A stretch of 24,484 nucleotides of DNA from positions 1 to 24,484 of IMG/VR virus record IMGVR_UViG_3300025131_000409, one strand, 5' to 3'. Shown piece by piece: positions 9,571-24,484 of this stretch. Origin of the DNA: a virus. Positions within the stretch are counted from its first letter, which is position 1, and every line of letters starts with the position of its first letter. The notes under the pieces are model-generated. The model searched no databases. It was not told the origin of the DNA and was given only the letters and a program-made list of their open reading frames with translations. A program made the translations under genes and the position numbers.

Positions 9571-9968
9571 TAACTTATAAGAAATATCAGCAAGGTGATG
9601 TAGTAATGTTTCAGGTAGATGATGAAACATTTAAAAAGAATATGGATGGTGCTACAAACGAAGCAAGCATTCATCATTATAATACTCAATCTCATAATAA
9701 TCCTGTATTAGCACTTGGTGAAGCTACTGGTCATATACATCAAATTCGTATGAAAGATATGTTAGATAAAGCTGAAGTTACACTTCATATGAATAGATTT
9801 CGTACAGTTGGTGAAGATACACCTCAAGGATTTGAAGTGCGTGAAGAAACTGTAACTCTTACTCATGAAGAGCATGATCCAATTGATGTACCACCTGGTA
9901 AATATCTTGTACGTATAGTTCAAGAGTTTGATCATATAGCTGGGAGGACAAGATATGTCGCTGACTAG
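9546..9968 (+). CDS. 140-aa conserved-type phage protein with GEATGHxH motif
   Basis: The product has QQGDVVMFQV near the N-terminus, LALGEATGHIHQI in the middle and THEEHDPIDVPPGKYLVRI followed by VQEFDH near the end. The combination of QGDv, GEaTGHxH and EEHxPi.lPpG.Y.v...rEyD is one I associate with a widespread uncharacterised phage protein. The two His of GHxH and the HEEH cluster could bind a metal, as in a small beta-barrel or cupin-like fold; that is inference. It lies inside the coupled chain, overlapping both neighbours. Confidence 0.7.
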   Translation: MSDKEKKVITYKKYQQGDVVMFQVDDETFKKNMDGATNEASIHHYNTQSHNNPVLALGEATGHIHQIRMKDMLDKAEVTLHMNRFRTVGEDTPQGFEVREETVTLTHEEHDPIDVPPGKYLVRIVQEFDHIAGRTRYVAD

Positions 9969-10989
9969 TCAAAGAGAACAGATGGAAGCTTATAGAGCCA
10001 AATATCTTCAAAATAAACAAGTTGAATGGCTTATTGAACATGGTAAAATACGTGAAAATGTATATTTTAAAGGTGAAACTGGTGATAGATATACCATTTA
10101 TATAGCTACCAAAAGAAATAAGAATGTTGTAGATTTTCATCAAATTTATAATGTTTATGATCATGGAACTTCTAATGGTCAACATATAGCTGTTATAAAA
10201 GATTATGTTTTAAAAATGATCAGTAATGGTTGTCATTATTGGTATAAACATAATAATTGTGGTTATGTTGTCAAACAGTTAATGCGTCAAGGAGTAATGA
10301 ATAAAAATTGGAAACGGCATTGGAAAATAAGATTTTGCAGATCAGCATTTCTTATGAAATTATGTGATAAGACAGAATTTACTCCATGGATAGGAATGAA
10401 GTTAAACTTATTAACTGGTAAACTTGTCAATAAACCAACTCATCAATCTGCTCTAAGTTATAGAAAAGCTAAAGAAACTGATAGCAAAGCTCGTAAAGCT
10501 AATCGTATAGCTAATAAGAATAATACTGAAGCTTTAGTTAGATACCATGCAGCTAAAGGTAACTATGCTTTACTTCCTATGGATGATGTATTTAAACATC
10601 GTAATGTAGAATATCGTACTGATATTTTAAATTTCTATGGTTTAGAGAAAGTTCTTGGAACATTAGAAACTAAAGTTGAAGATGAAGATACTATAGATGG
10701 AAGATTTTACAGGTTAATTAATGTAAAGATTCCTGATTTAGCATCTGGGCAAGAACGTCATGAATGGGGTTTATATCTTGAAATGATTAATCCTTCTACA
10801 GGAGAAAGTCATTTTGAAGGTGTAGCTAATGTTGAAGGTACTAGAGGATGGGGTAATTCCCATATAGAAGAAGCTACTGTAAAAGCTGCCTTATCTTGGC
10901 GTGACGGTGATGGATTAGTTCAAACTGGTCGAACATGGAATGCTATATCAAGTAGTGATAACTATATTCCTCCTGTCAAAATGACATAA
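9955..10989 (+). CDS. 344-aa DUF6745-like phage protein
   Basis: The N-terminal part (about 1-200) is basic and aromatic (HYWYKHNNCGYVVKQLM, NWKRHWKIRFCRSAF). The C-terminal 130 residues follow the order FYGLEKVLGTLETK, FYRLINVKIPD, WGLYLEMINPSTGESHFEGV, EEATVKAALSWRDGD. Calling it DUF6745-like rests on this C-terminal pattern: Leu/Val strand, PSTG..H.EGV, then a helix ending in A.SWR.G. No catalytic motif is recognised. The start overlaps the preceding gene by 14 bases. Confidence 0.6.
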   Translation: MSLTSQREQMEAYRAKYLQNKQVEWLIEHGKIRENVYFKGETGDRYTIYIATKRNKNVVDFHQIYNVYDHGTSNGQHIAVIKDYVLKMISNGCHYWYKHNNCGYVVKQLMRQGVMNKNWKRHWKIRFCRSAFLMKLCDKTEFTPWIGMKLNLLTGKLVNKPTHQSALSYRKAKETDSKARKANRIANKNNTEALVRYHAAKGNYALLPMDDVFKHRNVEYRTDILNFYGLEKVLGTLETKVEDEDTIDGRFYRLINVKIPDLASGQERHEWGLYLEMINPSTGESHFEGVANVEGTRGWGNSHIEEATVKAALSWRDGDGLVQTGRTWNAISSSDNYIPPVKMT

Positions 10990-11132
10990 TGCGTAAGTTC
11001 AAAAGTAACAAAGAAGAACTTGAATGGGCTAATAAACTCCTTCGGAAACTTGCTAATCCAAATACCGGAGGAGTTACACCCATTATTAAATCAATGATTA
11101 ATGAAAAATACATAAGGAGATTGAAAAAATGA
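10989..11132 (+). CDS. 47-aa basic small protein
   Basis: The ATG overlaps the TAA before it (TAATG) and its TGA overlaps the next ATG (ATGA). The product starts MRKFKSNKEELEWANKLLRK, then LANPNTGGVTPIIKS and a basic end. It appears to be two amphipathic helices around a Gly turn. Coupling on both sides supports translation; the ribosome binding site of the next gene lies within it. Function unknown. Confidence 0.55.
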   Translation: MRKFKSNKEELEWANKLLRKLANPNTGGVTPIIKSMINEKYIRRLKK

Positions 11133-11437
11133 GTAAAAGTACACAAATAGTTGGTGAATTAACTTCTAAAGTAGAAATGCCTGTAGTGGGTTGTAGAGGC
11201 CCTTTGGCAATATATAAAGCTAAAGCTAAAACTTTCTTTGAAACTATGAAAGTTGGACAATCATTTTCTGTAGAAAATAGAACTGTCGAAGCTGTAAAAA
11301 GATGGTCTAAAGATTGGCGTAGAGATTTAAGAGCTACTGGTAAGAAGAAAGATGCTATTTTAGCAGATAGAGGTTTTATTACTAAATATGAAGTAATCGG
11401 TAAGACTCGGGGTGTCCGTGTATGGAGATATGTTTAA
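11129..11437 (+). CDS. 102-aa phage protein, VGxSF...VWR family (second copy)
   Basis: The ATG has AAGGAGA upstream. The product contains MKVGQSFSV (about 40-48), a very basic middle (VKRWSKDWRRDLRATGKKKD) and the end GVRVWRYV. It shares its plan with the protein at 8000, although the rest has diverged. The long basic helix would fit nucleic-acid binding. It is the paralogue closer to the replication genes. No enzymatic motif is seen. Confidence 0.7.
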   Translation: MSKSTQIVGELTSKVEMPVVGCRGPLAIYKAKAKTFFETMKVGQSFSVENRTVEAVKRWSKDWRRDLRATGKKKDAILADRGFITKYEVIGKTRGVRVWRYV

Positions 11438-11592
11438 TGAGCGAAATAAAGATGTATGATGTTATAATTTCTTATCCAATCAAAGTTGGTGCTGAAAATA
11501 AAGAACATGTCAAGGAAATTCTTATGGCTAATGAACTTTTACGTAATGCTGCTGATTTAACTCTTAAAATAACTGAAGAAAAGTCAAAATAA
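11437..11592 (+). CDS. 51-aa small protein
   Basis: The ATG overlaps the preceding TAA (TAATG). The product starts MSEIKMYDVIISYPIKVGAE, a beta-strand-like start, and continues as a helix (NKEHVKEILMANELLRNAAD) and an acidic/basic tail. The strand-helix order could be a mini alpha/beta fold. No family is recognised. Translation probably depends on coupling, because no strong ribosome binding site is visible. Confidence 0.5.
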   Translation: MSEIKMYDVIISYPIKVGAENKEHVKEILMANELLRNAADLTLKITEEKSK

Positions 11593-11630
11593 TACTTGTA
11601 AATGTGTTCCCCGTCACAGTATTTTTACCT

Positions 11631-11786
11631 ATGGAAAGTGAGTCAGTTTTAGAAGATATCGTAATAAAATCCTATTTAGAGCTATATCTTCGTGCATTAA
11701 ATGATTCAAGACCACAGAAATTTATAAACATAATAAAGAATAGAATGTTAGTCCTTATTAAACGTAAATATCTGAAAAATAAATAA
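11631..11786 (+). CDS. 51-aa hypothetical protein, start uncertain
   Basis: The frame runs from a GTG at 11604 or the ATG at 11631 and ends in a strongly basic tail (RMLVLIKRKYLKNK). Neither start has a clear ribosome binding site; the ATG is preferred because the intervening codons (FPVTVFLP) add nothing recognisable. The product starts MESESVLEDIVIKSYLELYL, a long helix. It lies just before the Sak4-like ATPase but contains no P-loop, which matters for reading that gene as permuted. Confidence 0.4.
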   Translation: MESESVLEDIVIKSYLELYLRALNDSRPQKFINIIKNRMLVLIKRKYLKNK

Positions 11787-11812
11787 CCCTAAATAACAAG
11801 GAGAAACCCCAA

Positions 11813-12646
11813 ATGAATATATTATTATTCGATCTCGAAAATGGAAGTAAGACGCTTGGTAATAGAGGAGATATACAAAAATCTTTTGGCTTACCAGTGT
11901 TATCACCTGGATCTTTTGAAGACTTCAGTACAGTAATAACTCAACTTTATGATAAGACCGAAGATGATCATTCTGTATTAATTGGAAATCGTGAAATACA
12001 AGAACATCGCATAGTAAGAACTCTTGCAGATCCTACATTCCCAATAGATGCTTTAGTTATTGATACTTTTTCAGAATTATCTAAGAAATATCAAAGAAAT
12101 CTCACTAGAGATGATGGTGGTACAATGAAAATATCATCTTGGGGAAAGTTGAAGAATAAATTAGATGGTCTACTTGAATATCTAACTGCTCTTCCAGGCA
12201 TTCTTATATGTAATTGTCATAGCAAAATTCAAACTATGGATACTGGTGGAAATAAAGTATTGCCTTATATTGATGGCTCTACTAAAGAAGATGTTAGTAA
12301 ATGGTTTGATTTTGTATTATATGCTGCTACAGTTAATAAACCAAATGGTGATAATACATATGTATGGCGTACAAATCATACTTCAATGTATGATCATGCA
12401 AAAGATAGAACTCAATTACTTGACAATGAAATTCCTCAAGATTATCAAGTTGTAATTAATGCTGCTAATAAACGTGGATATGATGGTGCTAAAATCTTAG
12501 TAATAGGATCACCTGGTACTGGCAAAACATATTCACTTCGCACATTAAATCCCACAACAGTAAAGACCACTAAAACAAAAACACCTAAAGTAGTTGCAAG
12601 TGTTAATGGTGGTGGTACTGATATTCCAACAACAACTACAGTATAA
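11813..12646 (+). CDS. Sak4-like RecA-fold ATPase, apparently circularly permuted
   Basis: The start follows AAGGAG. Phage Sak4-type single-strand annealing ATPases begin with a P-loop, followed by a strand ending in D.E.G. Here the protein opens directly on that second strand (NILLFDLENGSKTL, 2-15). It continues in normal order with Walker B DALVIDTFSEL (79-89), SSWGKLKNKLDGLLEYL (108-124), the sensor strand GILICNCHSK (129-138) and EIPQDYQVVIN (206-216). The Walker A motif GSPGTGKT then appears at 232-239, followed by its helix YSLRTLNP and a Thr-rich tail. Joined end to end, residues 226-250 and 2-15 read like an ordinary Sak4 N-terminus. The neighbouring SSB supports a role in recombination-dependent replication. 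The ATP site is complete although rearranged. Confidence 0.8.
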   Translation: MNILLFDLENGSKTLGNRGDIQKSFGLPVLSPGSFEDFSTVITQLYDKTEDDHSVLIGNREIQEHRIVRTLADPTFPIDALVIDTFSELSKKYQRNLTRDDGGTMKISSWGKLKNKLDGLLEYLTALPGILICNCHSKIQTMDTGGNKVLPYIDGSTKEDVSKWFDFVLYAATVNKPNGDNTYVWRTNHTSMYDHAKDRTQLLDNEIPQDYQVVINAANKRGYDGAKILVIGSPGTGKTYSLRTLNPTTVKTTKTKTPKVVASVNGGGTDIPTTTTV

Positions 12647-12657
12647 GGAGAACCAAA

Positions 12658-13227
12658 ATGGCTGTAAAAACAATGGTACAAAATACAAGTACTGGCTTAT
12701 ATGATGCAGGTTGGCATGAACTCGTTATTAGTTCTGCTGCCTATGATACATGGACAGGTCCTGATGGTAAAGTGAAGAGATATGTAAATCTTCATTTTGA
12801 AGGATATGATAATATGGATCTTCGCATTTACGAAGCTAAGAATAGAGAAACTAATATAGAGTTTAAAATTGCTAATCTATTTCGTTATGCGTGTGCTGGT
12901 ATTATTGATGTTCTTAATGATCCTACAGGTAAGAATCCAGTAATTCAATATGATGATGAAGCTGAAAATCTAGTTGGTACTCGAATCAATGTTTTCTTTT
13001 ATAAAAAGAAAGCTGATGATGGTAATGAATATAGTCGTCCTTTTGATACTGTAGCTCCTGTTGAGCAAGTAACTGAACATGTAACATGGACAACTGATCA
13101 AGTTGCAAGACTTAAAGCTTCTGCAGAGAAGAATTTTGTTAGAGTAAAAGGTGATAAAGTAGATCATACTAATCATCATACTACAGCAAAAACTACTACA
13201 ACTAGTGATGCAGAATTACCCTTCTAA
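12658..13227 (+). CDS. single-stranded DNA-binding protein (DUF669/SSB-like)
   Basis: The start has AAGGAG upstream and lies 11 bases after the ATPase gene. The 189-aa product reads as a beta-rich binding domain (GWHELVISSAAYDTWTGPDG, VKRYVNLHFEGYDNMDLRIY, then VGTRINVFFYKKK). A Thr/His-rich flexible linker leads to an acidic end, DAELPF, the typical SSB tail that recruits partners. The pairing with a Sak4-like ATPase is a known arrangement in phage recombination modules. It would coat ssDNA and load the annealing ATPase and the primase-helicase. A strong hairpin follows the gene. Confidence 0.75.
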   Translation: MAVKTMVQNTSTGLYDAGWHELVISSAAYDTWTGPDGKVKRYVNLHFEGYDNMDLRIYEAKNRETNIEFKIANLFRYACAGIIDVLNDPTGKNPVIQYDDEAENLVGTRINVFFYKKKADDGNEYSRPFDTVAPVEQVTEHVTWTTDQVARLKASAEKNFVRVKGDKVDHTNHHTTAKTTTTSDAELPF

Positions 13228-13236
13228 ATAAACCCT

Positions 13237-13274
13237 GGGAAAAGGCTACATTATTAAAGATGTGGCCTTTTCCC
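13237..13274 (+). promoter_or_regulatory. 10-bp perfect hairpin after the SSB gene
   Basis: GGGAAAAGGC (13237-13246) and GCCTTTTCCC (13265-13274) pair perfectly. The 18-base loop can itself form ACAT / ATGT. CCTGG and CCAGG at the outer edge may lengthen it. The AGGAG of the next gene begins four bases after the stem. The T run lies within the 3' arm, so intrinsic termination is doubtful. Translational control or transcript processing between SSB and the following genes is more likely. Confidence 0.6.
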
Positions 13275-13288
13275 CTCCAGGAGAATAT

Positions 13289-13507
13289 ATGCGAAAAATG
13301 TCTGAAGAATCAGCTAATGAATTATGGAAAGCTTTAAATAAATTAAAAGATAAAGAAGAAGAATTTGCTAAAATATGTGTCAAATTAGAAGTTGCTACTG
13401 AAATAATTAAAGCTTGGGTTGGATATATGAATAGTCATTTATCTGAAACTGAAAAATTATTAGTTAGTAAATCTAAAGAATTTCTAGGAGAAGATAATGA
13501 ATCTTGA
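13289..13507 (+). CDS. 72-aa helical, coiled-coil-like protein
   Basis: The start is placed at the ATG of 13289, which has CCAGGAG six bases upstream. A GTG 27 bases earlier would put the hairpin arm and this binding site inside the coding region. The product begins MRKMSEESANELWKALNKLK and is almost wholly helical and charged (DKEEEFAKICVKLEVATEII), with a short aromatic part (KAWVGYMNSH). It is probably an oligomerising or adaptor protein; no family is recognised. Confidence 0.65.
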   Translation: MRKMSEESANELWKALNKLKDKEEEFAKICVKLEVATEIIKAWVGYMNSHLSETEKLLVSKSKEFLGEDNES

Positions 13508-13631
13508 TGATATAGTTAGATTATGGTATAAAACTCAGATGGGTGATATGCGGGAATGTAAGAAAAATCAATTTATCTTTGCTGATATAATGTGGAAACT
13601 TTATGAAAGATTAAAAGAGAAAGATGTCTAA
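13497..13631 (+). CDS. 44-aa small protein
   Basis: The ATG has CTAGGAG seven bases upstream, inside the end of the preceding gene. The product starts MNLDDIVRLWYKTQMGDMRE and continues with CKKNQFIFADIMWKLYERLK, two amphipathic helices with many aromatic residues. It overlaps both neighbours (11 and 8 bases). A good site and tight packing support it; function unknown. Confidence 0.55.
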   Translation: MNLDDIVRLWYKTQMGDMRECKKNQFIFADIMWKLYERLKEKDV

Positions 13632-13887
13632 AAATATCCCATTTAATATAAATAGAAGTCTAAATAAAAAAGATAAATCTAAAATAAGTAGTAGAAAATC
13701 TAGAAAACTTCATGGTATTTGTAGGGATGGTTCGTCAAGAAGTAGAGAAATGGCACAAGCTACTCGTTTCAATATGTATAGGAGAATACGAGAAGAAAAA
13801 GAAAATCCATATACAAAACATCCTCTATCATTTGAAGAATTTGATAATATTCCAGATATTGAAGATTTAATAAAGGAGAAAGAATGA
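13624..13887 (+). CDS. 87-aa basic hypothetical protein
   Basis: The ATG follows AAGAGAAAG. The first 55 residues are very basic and Ser-rich (NRSLNKKDKSKISSRKSRKL, then CRDGSSRSREMAQ), and the C-terminus is acidic (FEEFDNIPDIEDLIKEKE). The charge asymmetry suggests a nucleic-acid-binding arm with an acidic docking tail. Its end overlaps the next ATG. No family is recognised. Confidence 0.65.
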   Translation: MSKNIPFNINRSLNKKDKSKISSRKSRKLHGICRDGSSRSREMAQATRFNMYRRIREEKENPYTKHPLSFEEFDNIPDIEDLIKEKE

Positions 13888-14141
13888 AAACTTTAACAAT
13901 AAAATTAACAGAAGAAGAGTATGCTATATTAGCTGCTTTATCTAATAAACAACGAAGAAATCCCACTCAACAAGCTGCTTCTATTGTTGTTGATAAGATA
14001 AAATCTTGTCGTGGATCATTAAAAAGAGAAGTATTTGAAGAAGCTCAATGTGCTGTAGCTGTATCACCTGAGTATAGACAGTTAATTAGTGAAAAACGTA
14101 AAGAAAGAATAAATGCTGCTCATATAGATGGTAAACAATAA
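13884..14141 (+). CDS. 85-aa putative ribbon-helix-helix DNA-binding protein
   Basis: The start overlaps the preceding stop and has AAAGGAG upstream. The N-terminus MKTLTIKLTEEEYAILAAL has the strand-then-helix order of the ribbon-helix-helix family (alternating strand residues, then T-E-E-E-Y), followed by a second helix (NPTQQAASIVVDKIK). RHH proteins dimerise through the strand and bind DNA with it. The C-terminal 45 residues are charged and helical. It could be an early-operon regulator. I grade the fold as likely and the role as unknown. Confidence 0.55.
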   Translation: MKTLTIKLTEEEYAILAALSNKQRRNPTQQAASIVVDKIKSCRGSLKREVFEEAQCAVAVSPEYRQLISEKRKERINAAHIDGKQ

Positions 14142-14407
14142 TGAGTCTTAACGTAATTAAATATGAATGGGATGTTGGTGAGAACATAAAAGGGCAAGCT
14201 AACGCTATAAAAAATCTAAATTTTAATGTGTGGCTTGGTAAAAACGATAAAAATCGTCATGTAGATATTAAATTATTTGAACTTTGGGATAAAGAAGAAA
14301 CCAAAGTTATTTCAGAAGAATTAGATTTAAAACAATTAGTTTGTCTTAGAAACTTTTTAAATAGTATTCCATTCTTAGATGAAGAATTAGGAGAAAAAGA
14401 TGATTAA
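14141..14407 (+). CDS. 88-aa hypothetical protein
   Basis: Coupled to its neighbours: TAATG at the start and an eight-base overlap with the primase-helicase at the end. The product starts MSLNVIKYEWDVGENIKGQA and has beta-like (NFNVWLGKNDKNRHVDIKLF) and helical (LDLKQLVCLRNFLNSIPF) parts. Its location directly before primase-helicase suggests co-translation with it. No domain is recognised. Confidence 0.65.
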   Translation: MSLNVIKYEWDVGENIKGQANAIKNLNFNVWLGKNDKNRHVDIKLFELWDKEETKVISEELDLKQLVCLRNFLNSIPFLDEELGEKDD

Positions 14408-16139
14408 AGAATTTGCATTTGGATTAGCAAATCGACATCATTTTGGAGATGTACACGATATTGAAAAATGGGCAGGTATGGCACAAGATACTTTCATGTC
14501 CCTATGGGATTATGATAATCATGTAATTGATTATGTTAAACAGAAAGGTACTCTTGCATCATATGATGGAATGCTTTATATGCCTGATGAATTTATTCTT
14601 GATATAGATGGTGAGAATCCAGAAAGTGCTCGACAGAAAACTATCGGATTAAGTATTGTACTAGATGATTTATGTGTTCCATATCAAATTTACTTTTCTG
14701 GAACTGGATTTCATTTAGGTATACCTGGATCTGCTTTTAGATGGAAACCTGCACCTAATCTGCACCTAATGGTAAAAGATGAAATGATGGCTAAAGGTAT
14801 TTATGAATATGCAGATGTATCTGTATCTGATAAAACTAGACTTATAAGAGTAGTTAATACTCTTAATCAGAAATCAAATCTATGGAAAATTCCTCTTTTA
14901 CAGAAAGAATTACATAGTTCAATAATTGTAATACAAGAATTAGCAAAGAATAAACGCTCCACTTATCAATGGCAAACATTAGAATGTGAACCTGTGTTTG
15001 ATGTATTGAAACGTAAAACTGTTGCAAGTGATAAAACTTTTGAAACTGTTACTCTTGGTAGAACTCCAGATCCTGTATGGTATCCGTGTATTCAAACCAT
15101 GATGTCTGGTGCTGGTCAAGGATCAAGACATCAGATAGCTTTACGTGTAGCAGGATTTTTAAGATGGAGATATCCGGAACATGTAGTTAGGCTTGTTATG
15201 GAAGATTGGAGAAAACGTGTTGATTTAGATACTGCTATGCATTCATTTAGTAAGAAAGAAATGGATAAGATAGTAACTGATTGTTATGAAGGACATAAAG
15301 GTAATGGCTATAATTATGGCTGTACTGATGTTCATATGGATAATCATTGTCAATCTACATGTAGGCTTTATAAAGCTAAGAAGTCTCAACACATGATGGA
15401 TGCTAAAGCTATGGAAAAAGAACTTGTTGATTTTTTTACAAGAGATCTAGATCCAATAAATATAGGTAAATTATATGGTCAAGATTTTCCTATATATCCA
15501 GGTGAAGTAGTAGTTTTACAAGCACCACCTAAGTCTATGAAAACCATGCTCTTACAGAGTTGGATACATAAACTTAAACGTCCAACATATTTCATTGAAA
15601 TGGAAATGTCACCACGTCAAATGTGGATGAGATTCGTTATGATGGAAAAAGGTTGGGATGAAGATGAACTTAAAGCTCATTATAAACAGTATGCTAATGG
15701 AATTTCTCAGAATTTCGATTGGCTTACTATCGATTATAATAGTTGTTATTCTCATGAATTGAATAAACGTATCATGATGTTACCATATAAACCTGAGATA
15801 GTTGTTGTAGATCACATGGGTTTATTTAAATCTCAGAAACATGACAATAATATGAAGGTTGAAGAAGTATCTCAGGCTCTTATGGAAGTTGCAATTCAGA
15901 ATAATGTAGTAGTATTTGCAGTATCTGAAATAACTAAGCAAGCATTCCATGAAGGTATGGATATAACTTCAGCTAAAGGATCATTTAGAATTGGTTATAA
16001 TGCTAATAAAGTGCTCTCTCTCACACCATATAAAGATGATAAAAATCTTATCAAATCTTTAAAGGTTGTATGTACAGCCAATAGAGAAAGAGAAACTCTA
16101 AATTTAGAACTACTTGTAAATGGGACTGAAATAAAATGA
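14400..16139 (+). CDS. primase-helicase fusion: AEP-like primase, four-Cys domain, RecA-like helicase
   Basis: The 579-aa product has three parts. Residues 60-160 look like an archaeo-eukaryotic-type primase: FILDIDGEN (catalytic D68, D70), FSGTGFHLGIP (99-109, H105) and RLIRVVNT (147-154). Residues 228-325 carry four cysteines, C230, C308, C317 and C321, in a helical context (YPCIQTMM, GSRHQIALRVAGFLRW, YGCTDVHMDNHCQSTC). This order resembles the iron-sulfur domain of PriL. Residues 355-579 form a DnaB/RecA-like helicase with Walker A QAPPKSMKT (374-382), Walker B EIVVVDHMG (466-474) and VVFAVSEITK (504-513). The Walker A has Met where Gly usually precedes Lys. It would prime and unwind at the fork. 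No DNA polymerase gene is in the window. Confidence 0.8.
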   Translation: MIKEFAFGLANRHHFGDVHDIEKWAGMAQDTFMSLWDYDNHVIDYVKQKGTLASYDGMLYMPDEFILDIDGENPESARQKTIGLSIVLDDLCVPYQIYFSGTGFHLGIPGSAFRWKPAPNLHLMVKDEMMAKGIYEYADVSVSDKTRLIRVVNTLNQKSNLWKIPLLQKELHSSIIVIQELAKNKRSTYQWQTLECEPVFDVLKRKTVASDKTFETVTLGRTPDPVWYPCIQTMMSGAGQGSRHQIALRVAGFLRWRYPEHVVRLVMEDWRKRVDLDTAMHSFSKKEMDKIVTDCYEGHKGNGYNYGCTDVHMDNHCQSTCRLYKAKKSQHMMDAKAMEKELVDFFTRDLDPINIGKLYGQDFPIYPGEVVVLQAPPKSMKTMLLQSWIHKLKRPTYFIEMEMSPRQMWMRFVMMEKGWDEDELKAHYKQYANGISQNFDWLTIDYNSCYSHELNKRIMMLPYKPEIVVVDHMGLFKSQKHDNNMKVEEVSQALMEVAIQNNVVVFAVSEITKQAFHEGMDITSAKGSFRIGYNANKVLSLTPYKDDKNLIKSLKVVCTANRERETLNLELLVNGTEIK

Positions 16140-16318
16140 TACAGATCACAAAATGGCTAAATCCTAATGATGAAACCTGGTATAAAGGAACTTATATCAC
16201 TGTTCGTGAGTGGTTGATGATTGAGAAAGAACATATTGCCAATTTTACCGGTAAGACTACCACTATCAGAACTAACTCAGAAGGAGCTAAAGCTATATTT
16301 AGACAAAGGATCAAATGA
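16136..16318 (+). CDS. 60-aa hypothetical protein
   Basis: The ATG overlaps the primase-helicase stop (ATGA), and the stop overlaps the next ATG. The product starts MIQITKWLNPNDETWYKGTY, with a helix (VREWLMIEKEHIANF) and a Thr-rich strand (TGKTTTIRTNSEGAK), ending in basic residues. TGKTTT here is too short and lacks a glycine-rich loop before it, so it is not taken as a P-loop. Function unknown. Confidence 0.6.
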   Translation: MIQITKWLNPNDETWYKGTYITVREWLMIEKEHIANFTGKTTTIRTNSEGAKAIFRQRIK

Positions 16319-16473
16319 GAGATAAAATGATGGAAGAAGCTGATTGGAAAGATGGAATAAATGCTTTCAGATCTAGAGTTATAGACCAGTTAGACGGAAT
16401 AATTCAAGTACTTGATATACTTGAGAAAGACATAGCAAAATTAAAACAACAAACAAAAGGAGAACCCCAATGA
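16315..16473 (+). CDS. 52-aa coiled-coil-like protein
   Basis: The frame is coupled at both ends by ATGA overlaps. The product starts MRDKMMEEADWKDGINAFRS and continues with a heptad-like helix (VIDQLDGIIQVLDILEKDI, then AKLKQQ). It carries the AAAAGGAG binding site of the DUF932 gene in its last codons. It could form a dimer. No family is recognised. Confidence 0.55.
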   Translation: MRDKMMEEADWKDGINAFRSRVIDQLDGIIQVLDILEKDIAKLKQQTKGEPQ

Positions 16474-17270
16474 ACCCTTATTTACCAATAAGAAAAGTAC
16501 CATTAGATTATAATGGTATATCATCATCTGCTTATGCAGTTCAAATGCAACATGAATCTGGAAAAGGTACTCTAGATACTGAATGGAAAGAAACAGGTGT
16601 AGTAGGACATAGTTATCTTTTAGTAGATAATGATAGTGTAAGAAAAGCTGCAGAACAAGTAGCAGAAGAATCTAAACTTCAGTTTGTACATGATAAAACA
16701 TTCTTTAACGGCCGTAGTTACGCATATTCGTTAAAATCTGATCATGTGGTAGGTGAGGTTGCCCAAGGTGACGATGTGGCCTTAGGGATGCAATTTTGGA
16801 ACTCATATGACGGTTCTAAAGCATTTGGCTTTGCTATGATGCTTTATCGCCTCATATGTACCAATGGAATGATGAGTAAAGATCATTTCAATACTTATAG
16901 ATTTAAACATCAACCATCTAATGAAAACTGGGAAGATAGCTTGACAGAAGTAGTAACTAATATTAATAATTTAAGCAATGGATCTCATAATTTAGATGAA
17001 TTTCTTAGAAATCTCAGATCTCTTAGTAACTTAAATGTTACTACAGAAGAATTAGGTAGACTTAGACATAATCATTTGAAGGATGTTCCAATTCAATTGT
17101 GGGGTAATATAGTGGATCGTTATACTGATCCAAATAACCATGTTCCTCATAATGGTTGGACATTACTTAATGCTGCCACAGATCTTCTTTGGCACAAAAA
17201 GAAACCTACTGTTGCTAGTTATGGACAAAACTCTACAATAGTAGATGGTCTATGTCAGGCGGTCGCTTAA
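16470..17270 (+). CDS. DUF932 family phage protein
   Basis: The ATG has AAAAGGAGAACCCCA upstream. The 266-aa product follows the DUF932 plan. It has an N-terminal part with YLLVDNDSVRKAAEQ, then SYAYSLKSDHVVGEVAQGDD. The family-typical segment ALGMQFWNSYDGSKAFGFAM leads into LYRLICTNGMM. A helical C-terminal half follows (NWEDSLTEVVTNINNLSNG, RYTDPNNHVPHNGWTLLNAA). DUF932 proteins are common in phages and plasmids and often lie near recombination genes; their biochemical role is not settled. Length and motif order are normal. Confidence 0.75.
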   Translation: MNPYLPIRKVPLDYNGISSSAYAVQMQHESGKGTLDTEWKETGVVGHSYLLVDNDSVRKAAEQVAEESKLQFVHDKTFFNGRSYAYSLKSDHVVGEVAQGDDVALGMQFWNSYDGSKAFGFAMMLYRLICTNGMMSKDHFNTYRFKHQPSNENWEDSLTEVVTNINNLSNGSHNLDEFLRNLRSLSNLNVTTEELGRLRHNHLKDVPIQLWGNIVDRYTDPNNHVPHNGWTLLNAATDLLWHKKKPTVASYGQNSTIVDGLCQAVA

Positions 17271-18244: not shown

Positions 18245-18534
18245 TGGAAAGAGAAGGTGATTTAGGAAATTATTTAAGATTTAATTTTGAAAACGCTGTT
18301 GAAATGATAAATAAATTAACTAAAGATAATAATGCTTTACTTGATAAAATAGAAGAATTGGAAATTAAATTATATAATAAAGAAATGCCATCCATAAAAA
18401 GAGAGCCATTGCAAACTAGATTTGCTGAGATATCTAGAGAAGCTAAAACTGCAATGGAGCGATTCACAACCAAATTAAAAAAGGAGATCAATAAAGATGC
18501 CAAGTCCAAGCAAAGCCAAGGGCAACCGATTTGA
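18244..18534 (+). CDS. 96-aa coiled-coil protein
   Basis: The ATG overlaps the preceding TAA. The product contains the long helix EMINKLTKDNNALLDKIEEL, then EIKLYN, and a second basic helix (AEISREAKTAMERFTTKLKK). It overlaps the resolvase gene by 38 bases. Two consecutive coiled-coil genes before a resolvase suggest an accessory complex, but this is speculation. No motif is recognised. Confidence 0.6.
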   Translation: MEREGDLGNYLRFNFENAVEMINKLTKDNNALLDKIEELEIKLYNKEMPSIKREPLQTRFAEISREAKTAMERFTTKLKKEINKDAKSKQSQGQPI

Positions 18535-18820
18535 GAGAGAAATAGTTAATACAGTTCTGAGTTCAGGATTCAATAAATGTAAGCGTGCATGGGGGAGTAA
18601 TGGAGCTGCTCTCGGTATGCATGAAGAAGTTGATGTCCTGTTAGGTGAAGACTTTAAAATTCAAGCTAAATGTAGGAAGAAATTAGCATCATTTCTAGTA
18701 CCAACTGAACATGTAGATGCTGTAGTATGTAAGCAGGATAGAGGTGAGACCCTTATTATTATGAGATTTGATGACTGGTTAGAAGAAAGATTCATTTGTT
18801 CAATGCCGGAGGATAGATAA
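18497..18820 (+). CDS. putative PD-(D/E)XK nuclease, Holliday-junction-resolvase-like
   Basis: The start has AAAGGAG upstream. The 107-aa product shows KGNRFEREIVNTVL (8-21) with an early Glu, a conserved-looking RAWGSNGAALG (30-40), VDVLLGEDFKIQAKCRKK (45-62) with D46 and the Q56-x-K58 pair, and a final strand-helix (GETLIIMRFDDWLEE). The order E...D...(E/Q)xK is the PD-(D/E)XK nuclease pattern used by Hjc-type resolvases. In this operon it would resolve recombination intermediates or branched DNA before packaging. The length is normal for phage Hjc-like enzymes. The catalytic Gln in place of Glu is a known variation. Confidence 0.7.
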   Translation: MPSPSKAKGNRFEREIVNTVLSSGFNKCKRAWGSNGAALGMHEEVDVLLGEDFKIQAKCRKKLASFLVPTEHVDAVVCKQDRGETLIIMRFDDWLEERFICSMPEDR

Positions 18821-19029: not shown

Positions 19030-19042
19030 ATCGGGCCCTTAT
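19012..19042. terminator. 13-bp hairpin at the convergent junction
   Basis: The arms at 19012-19024 and 19030-19042 pair over 13 bases (ATAAGGGC / GCCCTTAT outside, CGAT / ATCG inside, one T.G pair) around a five-base loop. The stop codons of both converging genes lie in it. No T run follows on either strand, so termination would be non-canonical; it may also protect 3' ends or be an RNase target. Its symmetry suits a bidirectional element. Confidence 0.65.
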
Positions 19043-21687
19043 CTATTCTGAAGTTCAAGTATCAATCTTCTCAAATTATCATCAACATTATCTTTCTTTT
19101 TCTTCTTAAATGGTTTAACTCCAAAATATTTCTTAGAATATTTATTAATAGTTTTACGACCTTCTTTAATTTCTGATCGTGGATACCAACCAAGTTCATG
19201 ACGTATTATGTCTATACCTCTACCATCTCTAAGTGCAGGTATATTCTTTGTCCGCCACCTTGCAAGCTCTACATTCATCCTATTCCACATATTACGCTTT
19301 TCTTCAGTATCAATCTTTTTCTTTGGATTTACCCAATCAGGAACATCACCTTTGCCATAGTAATTTATATATCCAGTTAACATTTTAGCCCATTCATTAT
19401 CTGGCATCTTGTAAAGCTGAAACATATTTAACGCATATAGCATATCACCTACTATTGGGCCAGAAAAATCATTAACCATTCCACGCTTTCTTTCAAGTTT
19501 TTCATCATCTCCAGTAAAATATTCTGCAAGATCCTGTAAACGTTCTACGGTATCATTTTCTAGTGTATTAGTAAGATCTAGATTTGTAGTTAATGATAAA
19601 GCTTGTACAGCTGTATAAATACCAGCAAATCTCAATGCTTGTTTAAGTTCTGGAGCATCATATTGACCAGACAATAATGCATCATAAGAACCTTTAACAA
19701 TCTTAGATTGTAAGTTTAAAAAAGACATGGGATAATGCATAAATTGAAATGCTAATTCACCTAATGCTGTATTATAATCTTTTGCTTGCATTTTTGGCTT
19801 ACCATCAGCAGAAAGTTCCGTTGAACGTGGAGCGGTTCCTCCTATAGCTCGTGCTTTAGCATGTGCTGCATACTCAAATGCAAAAGTATTTACAGCCTTA
19901 ATAGCAAATTTAGTAGCCATACGCTCTATTGCTTTCTTATTAGCACTACCTGGATCTTTAAATTTAGCAGCATCTACTACGCTATGACCATTAAGCGTCT
20001 CATAAGCTTCCACCCATGCTATACGAAACATCCACTGACGTGTAGCATTCTCAGTAAATCTGTGGAACATTAAGGATTTACCAACAGCCCAATCAATTCT
20101 TGGATCCAATTTCTTTAACACACCCTTATCTCTATATGAAACTGTATTTCTAATTGGATCATACTTAATATCTGATACATTTACACCTTCAGAAGGGATA
20201 AGACCCTCTGCTACCAATTCTCTACCAGCTTCCTTAAACTTAAAACCCTGTTCTTTCTCTATTTCTGAGAGTGTTCCCTCATAATGAGAATGATATTTAC
20301 CTACCGCCCTAGCAGCACTTAAAACCCCATTTTGTGTAAAGAAGTAGGCTGCACTTGCACCGTTACGTATAGCACCAGTAACAGATAATCCCATAGATTT
20401 TAATGTTTCTACAGCCATCAATCCTCTAACAGTAGCATTAACCCAATCAGGTCTCTCCATTAATCCTTTAGTAGCTATCTGAAATGTATCGTCAATAAAA
20501 TGACGCATATCCCTAACAAATTCTATGTCTACATCTTCCTTCTGCATACGTCTCATAGCAGGAATATACTGTTCTTGAATAAAGTTTATCTTATTAAAGG
20601 CAATTACATCTTTAGAATACTGTGTTAGGATGAAGAATGGGTTCTTTGCCCATATATTATTAATATTTTCATTTCTTCCCTTAGCCTGATCTGGAATCAT
20701 GGTTTCTATACGTCCAATTAAAGTTTCTACAGCTTTATTCTTAGAATTTACATCCTTAGCTTCCATCAGACCACGCATTCTATAATTCATTTCAACTACA
20801 CTATCTAATACATAATGTGGTAAATAACCACCTCTATCCATCCCAACTTTAATACGTTCACGTGCTTCCTTGATACGCTTTATATAATTACGAGCATTTT
20901 TAGGTAAAATAGGAGAATCGTAAGTCATTTTGACTACATTTTCCATCCTTTCCAACCCATTTAGCATAACTTTACCCATACGATCAAGCAATTCCCTAGA
21001 TTCCTCTACAGCAAGACGAGTATCTCTAGAATACTTACCACTTTCAGCAGAGTAAGTATTCTTGTCCATCTCCATGAGCTTTATGTAATCTTCAATAACC
21101 TTTCCACCATTTTGATTAAATAAATTAGTATATTCTCTGTAATACTCACTTGTATTATCTTCAGTACCTGCACTAAGAATTTTAGTTTCAAGCTCCTGCA
21201 TTCTAGTCTGATATTTTTTAACTTCTTTCTTAGACATGCCTGTTTCTGAAATAAGAGCATTTCTTATATGTTTAGAGATAGATTTTGAATATGAAAGATA
21301 TTGATCCATATTATTACGTTCATAATTAATGGCCATATTTACATTTTCATAAAACATTCTTGTAACTGGAGATTTATTGGCAATAGCATCAGGTACATAG
21401 AAATATTTCCTAAATACCCCTATCTTCCCACTCTTATAATTACCCTCTATATTGTCAATCTCACGTTTCATCCGATTAACCATACCTTGAGAGAACTTAA
21501 AATCACTATTAAATGGAAGACGGAACAAATGCTCTGCTACATCATTTAAATAAGTTTCAGCATGCAGATCCTCAGCTTTATTGCCACCTATCTCACCTAA
21601 ATGTTTCCTGATAATAGCCTTACTATTCCAATGCTTTACTATGTCTTCAAAATCCTTATTACGCTCACCATAGAAGCAACTATTCAT
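19039..21687 (-). CDS. 882-aa large virion-type protein
   Basis: The ATG has AAAGGAG seven bases upstream. The protein is large, mostly helical and charged, with a coiled-coil-like middle (TRMQELETKILSAG, RIKEARERIKVGMD). A more hydrophobic region follows (MAVETLKSMGLSVTGAIRNG, then ASAAYFFTQNGVLSAAR), then aromatic segments (ATRQWMFRIAWVEAYETLNG, LGELAFQFMHYPMSF). The C-terminus is strongly basic (KPFKKKKKD). This composition resembles large phage polyvalent or internal-virion proteins that travel with the DNA. No enzyme motif is recognised. It is the last gene of its strand and shares a transcription unit with the giant gene upstream. Confidence 0.7.
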   Translation of the reverse strand: MNSCFYGERNKDFEDIVKHWNSKAIIRKHLGEIGGNKAEDLHAETYLNDVAEHLFRLPFNSDFKFSQGMVNRMKREIDNIEGNYKSGKIGVFRKYFYVPDAIANKSPVTRMFYENVNMAINYERNNMDQYLSYSKSISKHIRNALISETGMSKKEVKKYQTRMQELETKILSAGTEDNTSEYYREYTNLFNQNGGKVIEDYIKLMEMDKNTYSAESGKYSRDTRLAVEESRELLDRMGKVMLNGLERMENVVKMTYDSPILPKNARNYIKRIKEARERIKVGMDRGGYLPHYVLDSVVEMNYRMRGLMEAKDVNSKNKAVETLIGRIETMIPDQAKGRNENINNIWAKNPFFILTQYSKDVIAFNKINFIQEQYIPAMRRMQKEDVDIEFVRDMRHFIDDTFQIATKGLMERPDWVNATVRGLMAVETLKSMGLSVTGAIRNGASAAYFFTQNGVLSAARAVGKYHSHYEGTLSEIEKEQGFKFKEAGRELVAEGLIPSEGVNVSDIKYDPIRNTVSYRDKGVLKKLDPRIDWAVGKSLMFHRFTENATRQWMFRIAWVEAYETLNGHSVVDAAKFKDPGSANKKAIERMATKFAIKAVNTFAFEYAAHAKARAIGGTAPRSTELSADGKPKMQAKDYNTALGELAFQFMHYPMSFLNLQSKIVKGSYDALLSGQYDAPELKQALRFAGIYTAVQALSLTTNLDLTNTLENDTVERLQDLAEYFTGDDEKLERKRGMVNDFSGPIVGDMLYALNMFQLYKMPDNEWAKMLTGYINYYGKGDVPDWVNPKKKIDTEEKRNMWNRMNVELARWRTKNIPALRDGRGIDIIRHELGWYPRSEIKEGRKTINKYSKKYFGVKPFKKKKKDNVDDNLRRLILELQNR

Positions 21688-21910
21688 TTAAAGCTCCTTT
21701 ATTGTTAAAGTGGTACTTAGTGTCCAGAAAAGAAAGAAACGGCCTTCTAGACCCCTTTACGGGCCTTATATGACCCCATACTGATCTTACATAAGGTACA
21801 AGAGGTTTCAAAACTTTATACGCTGGGTAGGGCCACTTTCTTAAACCAAAATCAAAAGTTGATATATGTGGTATAGAATTTTCGTTATTTTTCATTTGAT
21901 TAAAGCCCAC
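21680..21910 (-). CDS. small protein between two giant genes, start uncertain
   Basis: The frame starts at a GTG (21910) or an in-frame ATG five codons later. AAAGGTGG lies just before and over the GTG, so it could serve the ATG with wide spacing. The product contains FDFGLRKWPYPAYKVLKPL, then basic and aromatic residues (VWGHIRPVKGSRRPFLSFL) and overlaps the next gene by eight bases. It is 71-76 aa, basic and Pro-rich, with no recognised family. Overlaps with both giants favour a real gene. Confidence 0.5.
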   Translation of the reverse strand: MGFNQMKNNENSIPHISTFDFGLRKWPYPAYKVLKPLVPYVRSVWGHIRPVKGSRRPFLSFLDTKYHFNNKGALNE

Positions 21911-24484
21911 CTTTACACGTTTTCCTCTTATCTATTCTATTTTCCTTCCAATTGCTGAACATATTTCTTACTTCCCTGATTTGATACTCACCCTCCTTAA
22001 CTTTAGTAACCTCACCACGATAAGTACCTATCCCCATACCTTGTAGTTTAATTTCCATGTCTGGAGTAATAACGCCATCAAGTACAGATCGTAAAACATT
22101 GTTAGCCTTCACTGGATCTAAATTATATTTTGTTTGATATAATGGGCTGGGTCTTAAATCAAAAGTCAGATCATTACTATAGCCTGCAAAATAATTCTTT
22201 ATTCTATTATATTCACCAGCTATTTCAGAAGCTACATCCATATGTCCATTGTTATTAAGCCAAGTAAAAACTTCTTTAAAGATTCTATTATTTAAAGCCA
22301 TAAATGGTAGTTCTGTATCACCTTTAACAAAATGTCTTGGAACTACATTGGAACGCAAGAGCATCTTTGCTTTATAATATATAAATGCCTTGTCTTCTCC
22401 AAAATCTCCCAACTGATATTGCTCTAATACTTTTGGTTCTCCTTCCTGAGAGTAAGACTTTTTAAAATAATTTTCCAAAAGTAAAGTATTTTCATTAGAT
22501 GCTTTACTAAAAGGGCCAAAGTCAGCTCTGTTTTTTCTCCATCTATTAAGAGCCCTACTCCAAACACCTACTAACCTTTGTGCTACCTCCTGAGAATCTG
22601 CATCATATCTATCAAAAGCTTTTTTACTTGCAAACATTGGAGTACTATTGTGTACATAATGCCATGTATATCCTTCTAAAGTTGACTCACGAGAAGCTCT
22701 ATGTCCAACAATAGGATTCTTTAACACAAGAAATTTACCACTTCGCTTCTTAGAAGATCTACCATTAGCACGTATTGTTTCCACATATTTAACTGCATCC
22801 CAATTAGGAGTACCATCCTTACTATATAAATTACCAACAATTTTATATAAAGTCTGAGGTTTATCTGTAGGATTATTTATAAAGCCAGCTTTCTTTTTAT
22901 TAACAGTGTATTTATTTTGAGCTGCATAAGAGCCATCCTCACCCTTTTCTCCCCTAATAATTTTAAGAGTTTCCTGACCTCTAATGGATTCAATTATATT
23001 TCTTGCAGCTACAGCATTATCCATACGATTAACTATCCCTGATATCACAGAAGTATTTCCATTCTTAAATCCTAATTGATACTCTAGCTTGCTAGCAAGG
23101 AAACCTTCTTCTTGCAGGATGAGATCATATAGTAAAGCTGCATTTTCATCCATCCTTAGATATTGATTCTTAGCCACATCAAATATTTTTTCATGATGAA
23201 TTATCATTTCCTCATGAGAGATACCAATCACTTTCATAAGGCTTAATTGATCAAGAAAAGTTTCAGATTTAATTTTCATGTCACTAATATCTTTATGATG
23301 AGACCATGCCAAATCCATTTCTTCAGTTCTAAACATAGAATTCTGCACCACTCCATCCATCACACGTCCTGCATTACTTAGCTTCATTAATTTATCAAGA
23401 TTTTTTTCTGTAAACTTAATTACATTATTGGTAGGCGTAGCCTTACCCTCTAATACTAACCTTTTAAGACCTATAACGTCACGTGCCATAGGTTCCTTAT
23501 TATCTGTTGTCTTAAAAAATAATGGTATGAGTTCATTTAATTTAGCAGTCATATCAACATCAGCATTCTGAAATTTCCTAACCAAAGCTCTAAATATATA
23601 ACTATTAGGATCATTAAAAAACTTTCTCATGCGAACATAATGTGAATGTATATCATATGCAGTAGCTTGCTTCCCACCCATCTCACTAAATTGATTATTA
23701 AATATTGAAGAAGGTCTACGCATTACATCCATTACTTGATATAAGATATCAGCTTGTATACTGCCGGGATCAAAGTCCATCAATTTTGTCATCAATTCAG
23801 GTTCCTTCTCGGCAAGAAGCATATAGTCATATGGTTTTTCCCTCATTGTTGGATCTAAATTTTTAATAAAATCAACTATACTTTGATTACCTTTCTCTAG
23901 TCTTCTAAATAAATCTCCATTAGCAACCAAGTTATCAACATCATATCCTAGTTTAGTATTTATATTCTGATTTCCTATTGAAAGACCACCTAAACTTGCC
24001 CACTCAATGGCAGACTGCATACCAATAACCTTACCAACAGCTCTTTGATCTGCTAATATATCAGCCTTTAAATTATGTATATTATCTGTAACCCTACTTC
24101 CTGCATGCATTAGATCACCCTTAGCATCAAATCCAGTACCCCAAAGATTAGCTTTTCTCACACCAGGTTCAAGTATATTATATTCTTCATTATTGCTTGA
24201 TAGTTTAAATGAATTCTTCAAGAATCCCCACTTTAATTCCTTACCATCAACACGTGAGAAATCATGAGTACCTCTTCCCCTGTCTCCATCATGATCTCCC
24301 TGTAAATTAGAACGTACATCAAGAGAGTTCATTCCTTCCATGGTACCAATACTAGTAGCCCTTTCATCTTTAGATCTAAATCTTAACCTGACAGGAACAA
24401 AATCAGAAGCACCCTTTCTGGGGCCACGTTCTACCTGCTTTATTAAATGAATTTTATGTTCATTGATAGCAACCTTCATCTTTC
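21900..24484 (-). CDS. C-terminal part of a giant virion-type protein with a DxDGD motif (partial)
   Basis: At least 859 residues are visible. The frame is open to the right edge and the visible N-terminus does not look like a true start, so the gene continues outside. Near the visible N-terminus, residues 26-66 read like the catalytic barrel of two-barrel RNA polymerases: VPVRLRFRSKDERATS, a short spacer, then DVRSNLQGDHDGDRG. D62, D64 and D66 form DHDGD, matching the DxDGD metal loop of YonO/crAss-type and cellular polymerases. The remaining 790 residues are helical and unassigned. It could be a virion RNA polymerase or a polyvalent injected protein; the motif alone is suggestive, not proof. 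Confidence 0.6.
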   Translation of the reverse strand, partial: KMKVAINEHKIHLIKQVERGPRKGASDFVPVRLRFRSKDERATSIGTMEGMNSLDVRSNLQGDHDGDRGRGTHDFSRVDGKELKWGFLKNSFKLSSNNEEYNILEPGVRKANLWGTGFDAKGDLMHAGSRVTDNIHNLKADILADQRAVGKVIGMQSAIEWASLGGLSIGNQNINTKLGYDVDNLVANGDLFRRLEKGNQSIVDFIKNLDPTMREKPYDYMLLAEKEPELMTKLMDFDPGSIQADILYQVMDVMRRPSSIFNNQFSEMGGKQATAYDIHSHYVRMRKFFNDPNSYIFRALVRKFQNADVDMTAKLNELIPLFFKTTDNKEPMARDVIGLKRLVLEGKATPTNNVIKFTEKNLDKLMKLSNAGRVMDGVVQNSMFRTEEMDLAWSHHKDISDMKIKSETFLDQLSLMKVIGISHEEMIIHHEKIFDVAKNQYLRMDENAALLYDLILQEEGFLASKLEYQLGFKNGNTSVISGIVNRMDNAVAARNIIESIRGQETLKIIRGEKGEDGSYAAQNKYTVNKKKAGFINNPTDKPQTLYKIVGNLYSKDGTPNWDAVKYVETIRANGRSSKKRSGKFLVLKNPIVGHRASRESTLEGYTWHYVHNSTPMFASKKAFDRYDADSQEVAQRLVGVWSRALNRWRKNRADFGPFSKASNENTLLLENYFKKSYSQEGEPKVLEQYQLGDFGEDKAFIYYKAKMLLRSNVVPRHFVKGDTELPFMALNNRIFKEVFTWLNNNGHMDVASEIAGEYNRIKNYFAGYSNDLTFDLRPSPLYQTKYNLDPVKANNVLRSVLDGVITPDMEIKLQGMGIGTYRGEVTKVKEGEYQIREVRNMFSNWKENRIDKRKTCKGGL

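Follow-up and report, generated by a model that had tools for sequence, protein, structure and literature searches.

A Sak4-like phage ATPase with a circularly permuted chain

The window considered here is the whole 24,484-nucleotide stretch of the viral record IMGVR_UViG_3300025131_000409. One of its genes encodes a Sak4-like ATPase in which the P-loop (GSPGTGKT) lies at the C-terminus, and the question is whether this order of elements reflects a genuine circular permutation that still yields a working protein. The initial annotation had proposed such a permutation, and the reading frame and P-loop coordinates that it gave are correct (Table 1). To our knowledge, no natural circular permutation has been published for the RecA/Rad51 family, and the permuted P-loop enzymes known to us are GTPases. 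A literature search, with subscription journals outside its coverage, found no permuted Sak4, RecA, AAA or P-loop ATPase.

Table 1. Positions of the permuted Sak4 gene, its structural elements and related genes in the window
Feature	Position	Strand	Basis
Circularly permuted Sak4-like ATPase, 277 aa	11813..12646	+	ORF and profile matches, conservation, AF2, hhalign
Ribosome-binding site AAGGAG ahead of the permuted Sak4 gene	11798..11803	+	Sequence; RBS-like sequence at 77/77 homologues
Strand beta2, residues 3-11; D7, E9, G11 invariant; consensus FDLEHG	11819..11845	+	Invariant columns; hhalign
Beta-hairpin insertion, residues 46-71, 26 aa	11948..12025	+	AF2 secondary structure; gap in hhalign alignment
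Walker B strand, residues 80-84, then TFSEL; D84 and E88 invariant	12050..12064	+	Alignment, AF2
AKDR motif, residues 196-199, invariant	12398..12409	+	Family alignment; AKDR also in several conventional Sak4s (AKDRSG)
Permutation joint, residues 211-226: former C-terminal helix and short linker directly before the P-loop strand	12443..12490	+	AF2, hhalign
Walker A/P-loop GSPGTGKT, residues 232-239, C-terminal	12506..12529	+	Sequence, family alignment
P-loop helix xSLxTL, last conserved element	12530..12565	+	Family alignment, AF2
Thr-rich disordered tail, lineage-specific	12560..12643	+	pLDDT <50 at residues 250-277; tail length varies in family
Segment swapped for an ERF gene in contig L190	11805..12654	+	blastn blocks stop at 11804, resume at 12655
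SSB-like protein, predicted OB fold, acidic tip ...DAELPF	12658..13227	+	AF2, Foldseek; neighbour in 77/77 Sak4 loci
Primase-helicase, same replication module	14400..16139	+	phrog_16345 and DnaB_C
PDDEXK Holliday-junction resolvase-like protein	18497..18820	+	phrog_244, E 5e-10

Most of the chain is homologous to the Sak4 core domain. Residues 2-200 align to positions 24-195 of the Pfam profile AAA_24 (PF13479; E 5e-18); since the match begins at profile position 24, the first 23 positions, which are the site of the P-loop, are absent at the N-terminus. Residues 3-216 correspond to positions 66-255 of the Sak4-like annealing family phrog_124 (E 3.5e-23), and homology to the core domain (PF13479, phrog_124) was found in all 59 members of the family alignment. 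The C-terminal residues 226-253 match positions 3-30 of phrog_2872, another Sak4-like family (E 8e-6), as do 58 of the 59 members. When the phrog_124 profile was run over 17 longer contigs, positions of about 65-258 were followed directly downstream, in the same ORF, by positions of about 31-65 in 8 contigs. No convincing second Sak4 match was found in these 17 contigs, one weak match (7e-4) being present in a different 187-aa ORF of one of them (G002), and the possibilities that another subunit of a split gene supplies a second P-loop, or that a further Sak4 is encoded on these contigs, were rejected. Neither a duplication intermediate nor a leftover upstream P-loop was found in 77 loci, which contained one chance motif.

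Profile-profile comparison (hhalign) with the Sak4 of phage Seurat gave two complementary segments: residues 3-219 pair with Seurat 40-239 (E 6.4e-15) and residues 224-247 with Seurat 15-38 (E 1.1e-7, 50% identity). Residue 3 pairs with Seurat residue 40, so that the chain opens with beta2 and follows the conventional Sak4 from residue 40 on; the claim that it begins at the strand after the P-loop helix is thereby borne out. Joining the end to the beginning restores a conventional Sak4, as had been proposed: on a doubled Sak4 profile, one continuous alignment pairs residues 3-247 with 40-280 (E 1.4e-20), and the score rises to 150 from 103 on a single copy. The same pattern was seen with 15 conventional Sak4s from named phages, which the permuted-family profile matches as two pieces in swapped order. 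When these references were doubled in tandem, a single match spanned the joint, and doubled shuffled controls gave about 2 bits. Rotation improved the single-domain score of Seurat, Mcat31, CGphi29 and XX1924, the four best-scoring informative references, by 8-10 bits, with the maximum where the cut falls immediately behind the P-loop helix; the remaining ones were uninformative because only part of each aligns. From the swapped complementary alignments it follows that the new chain ends lie between the P-loop helix and beta2, and that a few residues connect the original C-terminal helix to beta1. The protein is homologous to Sak4 and departs from the canonical order with an N-terminal P-loop; it is therefore a circularly permuted variant and not an ordinary member.

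Homologues were gathered by scanning IMG/VR with the window protein and with alignments. This gave 80 distinct intact sequences, mostly about 45-84% identical to the window protein (L007 is 100% identical). The P-loop is present in 80 of 81 distinct family ORFs, exactly one in each and always C-terminal, a regularity that chance could not produce; the remaining ORF is truncated at the edge of its contig. Start codons stand directly at the beta2 strand, and an RBS-like sequence precedes the gene in all 77 loci checked. In the 59-member alignment, which includes members just 47-50% identical to the window protein, D7, E9, G11, D84, E88, K197, D198 and R199 are invariant, together with G232, P234, G235, G237, K238 and T239 of the P-loop (GxPGxGKT). 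Both Walker A and the Walker B aspartate of a Sak4 are thus retained.

The permuted Sak4 is carried by a family of mostly uncultured phages. A tblastn search with the window protein against 50,697 phage records gave no match at a threshold of 1e-3; relaxing this to E 10 yielded just weak partial matches to conventional Sak4s. With the family member L079, three weak partial matches to RecA-like recombinases were obtained in the phage records; with L062, none. Two pattern scans of about 85,000 bacterial and archaeal genomes found no member of the permuted family.

The window protein ends in a Thr-rich tail, which the initial annotation had described as free and as possibly changing filament contacts, and which is predicted to be disordered. 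Its importance is weakened, since the part of the chain past GKT varies from 7 to 77 aa across the family and is variable in sequence; the Thr-rich tail is accordingly specific to the window lineage and is not a family feature. In the most divergent permuted Sak4 found (L181, 2237-2981), the chain stops right after the P-loop helix (SLKTIK), and the tail is therefore not needed.

The AlphaFold2 model built on the 59-sequence alignment is confident (pLDDT 85.7, pTM 0.82). The blocks with beta1 and the P-loop reach pLDDT values of 93-97, and disorder is confined to residues 250-277 (pLDDT <50). The high pLDDT and the correct secondary structure bear indirectly on the structural check proposed for the gene, and suggest that the P-loop packs beside Walker B. 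The ATP site would then be built from both chain ends, with E9 N-terminal and Walker A C-terminal, as the model and the invariance of Walker A, Walker B and E9 indicate. E9 occupies what we take to be the catalytic-glutamate position of RecA-type enzymes, where the role of the RecA residue is established. A single-sequence phmmer search of the PDB gave no relevant match for the window protein. The best PDB match of the model in Foldseek is the Sak4 structure 8rc5, a complex with Stl2 (E 3.8e-3, probability 0.97), and the modest E-value is expected because Foldseek is a sequential aligner. The best match in BFVD, A0A516LUR7 (248 aa, 44% identity), appears to belong to the permuted family without having been recognised as such. 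Apart from the core, the model shows a short disordered tail and no additional N- or C-terminal DNA-binding domain of about 70 aa as in RecA/Rad51. The beta-hairpin, which follows the first helices and precedes Walker B, is an addition of the permuted family that conventional Sak4 lacks.

Conventional Sak4s (phrog_124/PF13479 AAA_24; phage HK620, staphylococcal phage 52A, PDB 8rc5) have the core elements in an identical cyclic order. The permuted protein shares with them the AKDR motif, the adjacent SSB-like gene and the lack of the RecA extra domain at either terminus, and differs in the site at which the chain is opened. The YRG or RsgA/YlqF GTPases (G4-G5-G1-G2-G3), which the initial annotation had named as a precedent, are likewise natural circular permutations of a P-loop NTPase. 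However, they belong to the GTPase class and have another cut site; judging from their motif order, the P-loop, helix 1 and strand 2 are contiguous in them. In the cpRAS GTPases (G3-G4-G5-G1-G2), the P-loop has likewise moved towards the C-terminus of the domain, while strand 1, helix 1 and strand 2 are kept together (PMC2430557). Unlike cpRAS, the permuted Sak4 is of the RecA class and has strand 2 at the opposite chain end from the P-loop.

The gene directly downstream of the permuted Sak4 belongs to one SSB-like family in all 77 loci and often overlaps the Sak4 stop codon. Sak4 genes usually adjoin an SSB gene with an acidic C-terminal tip, and the permuted family has an SSB-like gene in this place. 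The partners have a predicted OB fold and a disordered acidic end (...ELPF, ...DDIPF), many tips being of the PF type. Some members of the SSB-like family end in DPWD or DDW and not in DDIPF. The best structural match of the window partner is the ssDNA-binding protein PrgE (Foldseek E 1.5e-4), below which several SSBs rank with insignificant E-values. At the sequence level the partner family, which is unannotated, matches SSB families weakly, no Pfam match is convincing, and the HK620 SSB reached a probability of just 2% against the partner profile.

Anchoring the search on the SSB-like gene rather than on Sak4 gave 100 loci, of which 61 contained an ERF single-strand annealing protein, 36 the permuted Sak4 and none both; three short contigs had neither, and no conventional Sak4 was found among the 100. 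ERF (PF04404) takes the place of the permuted Sak4 immediately before this SSB-like gene; it belongs to an unrelated fold family and is a functional counterpart of the permuted Sak4, not a homologue. It was identified in four tested sister contigs with E-values of 8e-18 to 9e-23, and by HMM in the near-identical phage contig L190; the window protein has no match to it. Comparison of L190 (1-5068) with window positions 10921-16944 showed 88-89% DNA identity up to 9 bases before the Sak4 start, no similarity over the Sak4 gene and resumed similarity from 3 bases before the SSB-like start. In L190 a known annealase thus stands in, one for one, for the permuted Sak4, and this exchange is the strongest evidence for the permuted protein being a functional annealase or recombinase. 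The SSB-like gene is 71% identical between the two and the DNA further on 89%, with the primase-helicase proteins 94% identical; the greater divergence of the SSB-like gene relative to its surroundings suggests co-adaptation.

Elsewhere in the window, a 344-aa protein without a significant family match (9955-10989) is also encoded before the recombinase slot in some of the phages with ERF and some of those with Sak4. The minus strand bears two genes for proteins of 882 aa (19039-21687) and 859 aa (21900-24479) without significant PHROG matches, possibly virion proteins, as well as the terminase large subunit (746-2299).

Because this virus record is of metagenomic origin, a conventional gene might have been cut and rejoined during assembly or at a contig end. 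This would be extremely improbable, and is refuted by the 80 distinct complete ORFs that show the same order on many contigs, with an RBS-like sequence 5' and the SSB-like gene 3' in the 77 loci checked; an assembly rearrangement, which the initial annotation had named as a possible refutation, is excluded by the same homologues. It is also very unlikely that the protein is a chimera, in which a Sak4 lost its N-terminal P-loop and acquired an unrelated element of, for example, the AAA+ or RuvB-like type by C-terminal fusion. The C-terminal piece does match RuvB and AAA_19 weakly, but its best family is the Sak4-like phrog_2872, it fits the larger Seurat match without overlap at the identity given above, and the phrog_124 profile alone yields the same swapped order.

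The unusual order of elements could also mark a decayed or non-catalytic Sak4, whose fold is kept for structure or regulation alone. This is unlikely, as Walker A, Walker B, E9 and AKDR have stayed invariant despite the low identity within the alignment and the protein is exchanged one for one with ERF annealases. A circularly permuted Sak4, supported by the profiles, the homologues and the confident model, is very probably what the gene encodes: a working protein and most likely an ATP-dependent annealase or recombinase with the SSB-like protein as its partner, for which we infer ATPase activity, annealing, SSB contact and filament form.

The likeliest origin of the permuted gene is a tandem duplication from which both outer parts were later lost. 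Its product would be a RecA/Rad51-class ATPase core in which the former C-terminal helix is linked to the P-loop strand. By likeness to the Sak4 of HK620, it would most likely bind ssDNA coated by the neighbour-encoded SSB-like protein via the acidic tip and anneal complementary strands in an ATP-dependent manner during phage recombination and replication. The HK620 protein carries out ATP-dependent ssDNA annealing, and its stimulation by the neighbouring SSB needs the last six residues of that SSB (PMC5928155). More tentatively, the permuted Sak4 may be the first member of the RecA/Rad51 superfamily found to be circularly permuted in nature, with the chain opened within the beta1-P-loop-helix1-beta2 unit, a two-ended active site and an assembly on SSB-coated DNA unlike RecA-type filaments. 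Such an assembly is conceivable because the lost N-terminal lead-in and the gained beta-hairpin and free tail would alter protomer contacts.

It has been proposed that P-loop enzymes grew from an ancestral strand-P-loop-helix-strand fragment (PMC7758060). The strand1-P-loop-helix1-strand2 unit is intact in the known permuted GTPases and is split in the permuted phage Sak4, where the P-loop is now the last structured element of a chain whose gene has been kept in at least 80 distinct versions. With this family one can ask, on natural material, which connections within the chain a RecA-type motor requires for folding, ATP hydrolysis and filament growth. It provides a new scaffold for recombineering and, through the sister phages that have ERF in its place, a natural functional comparison.
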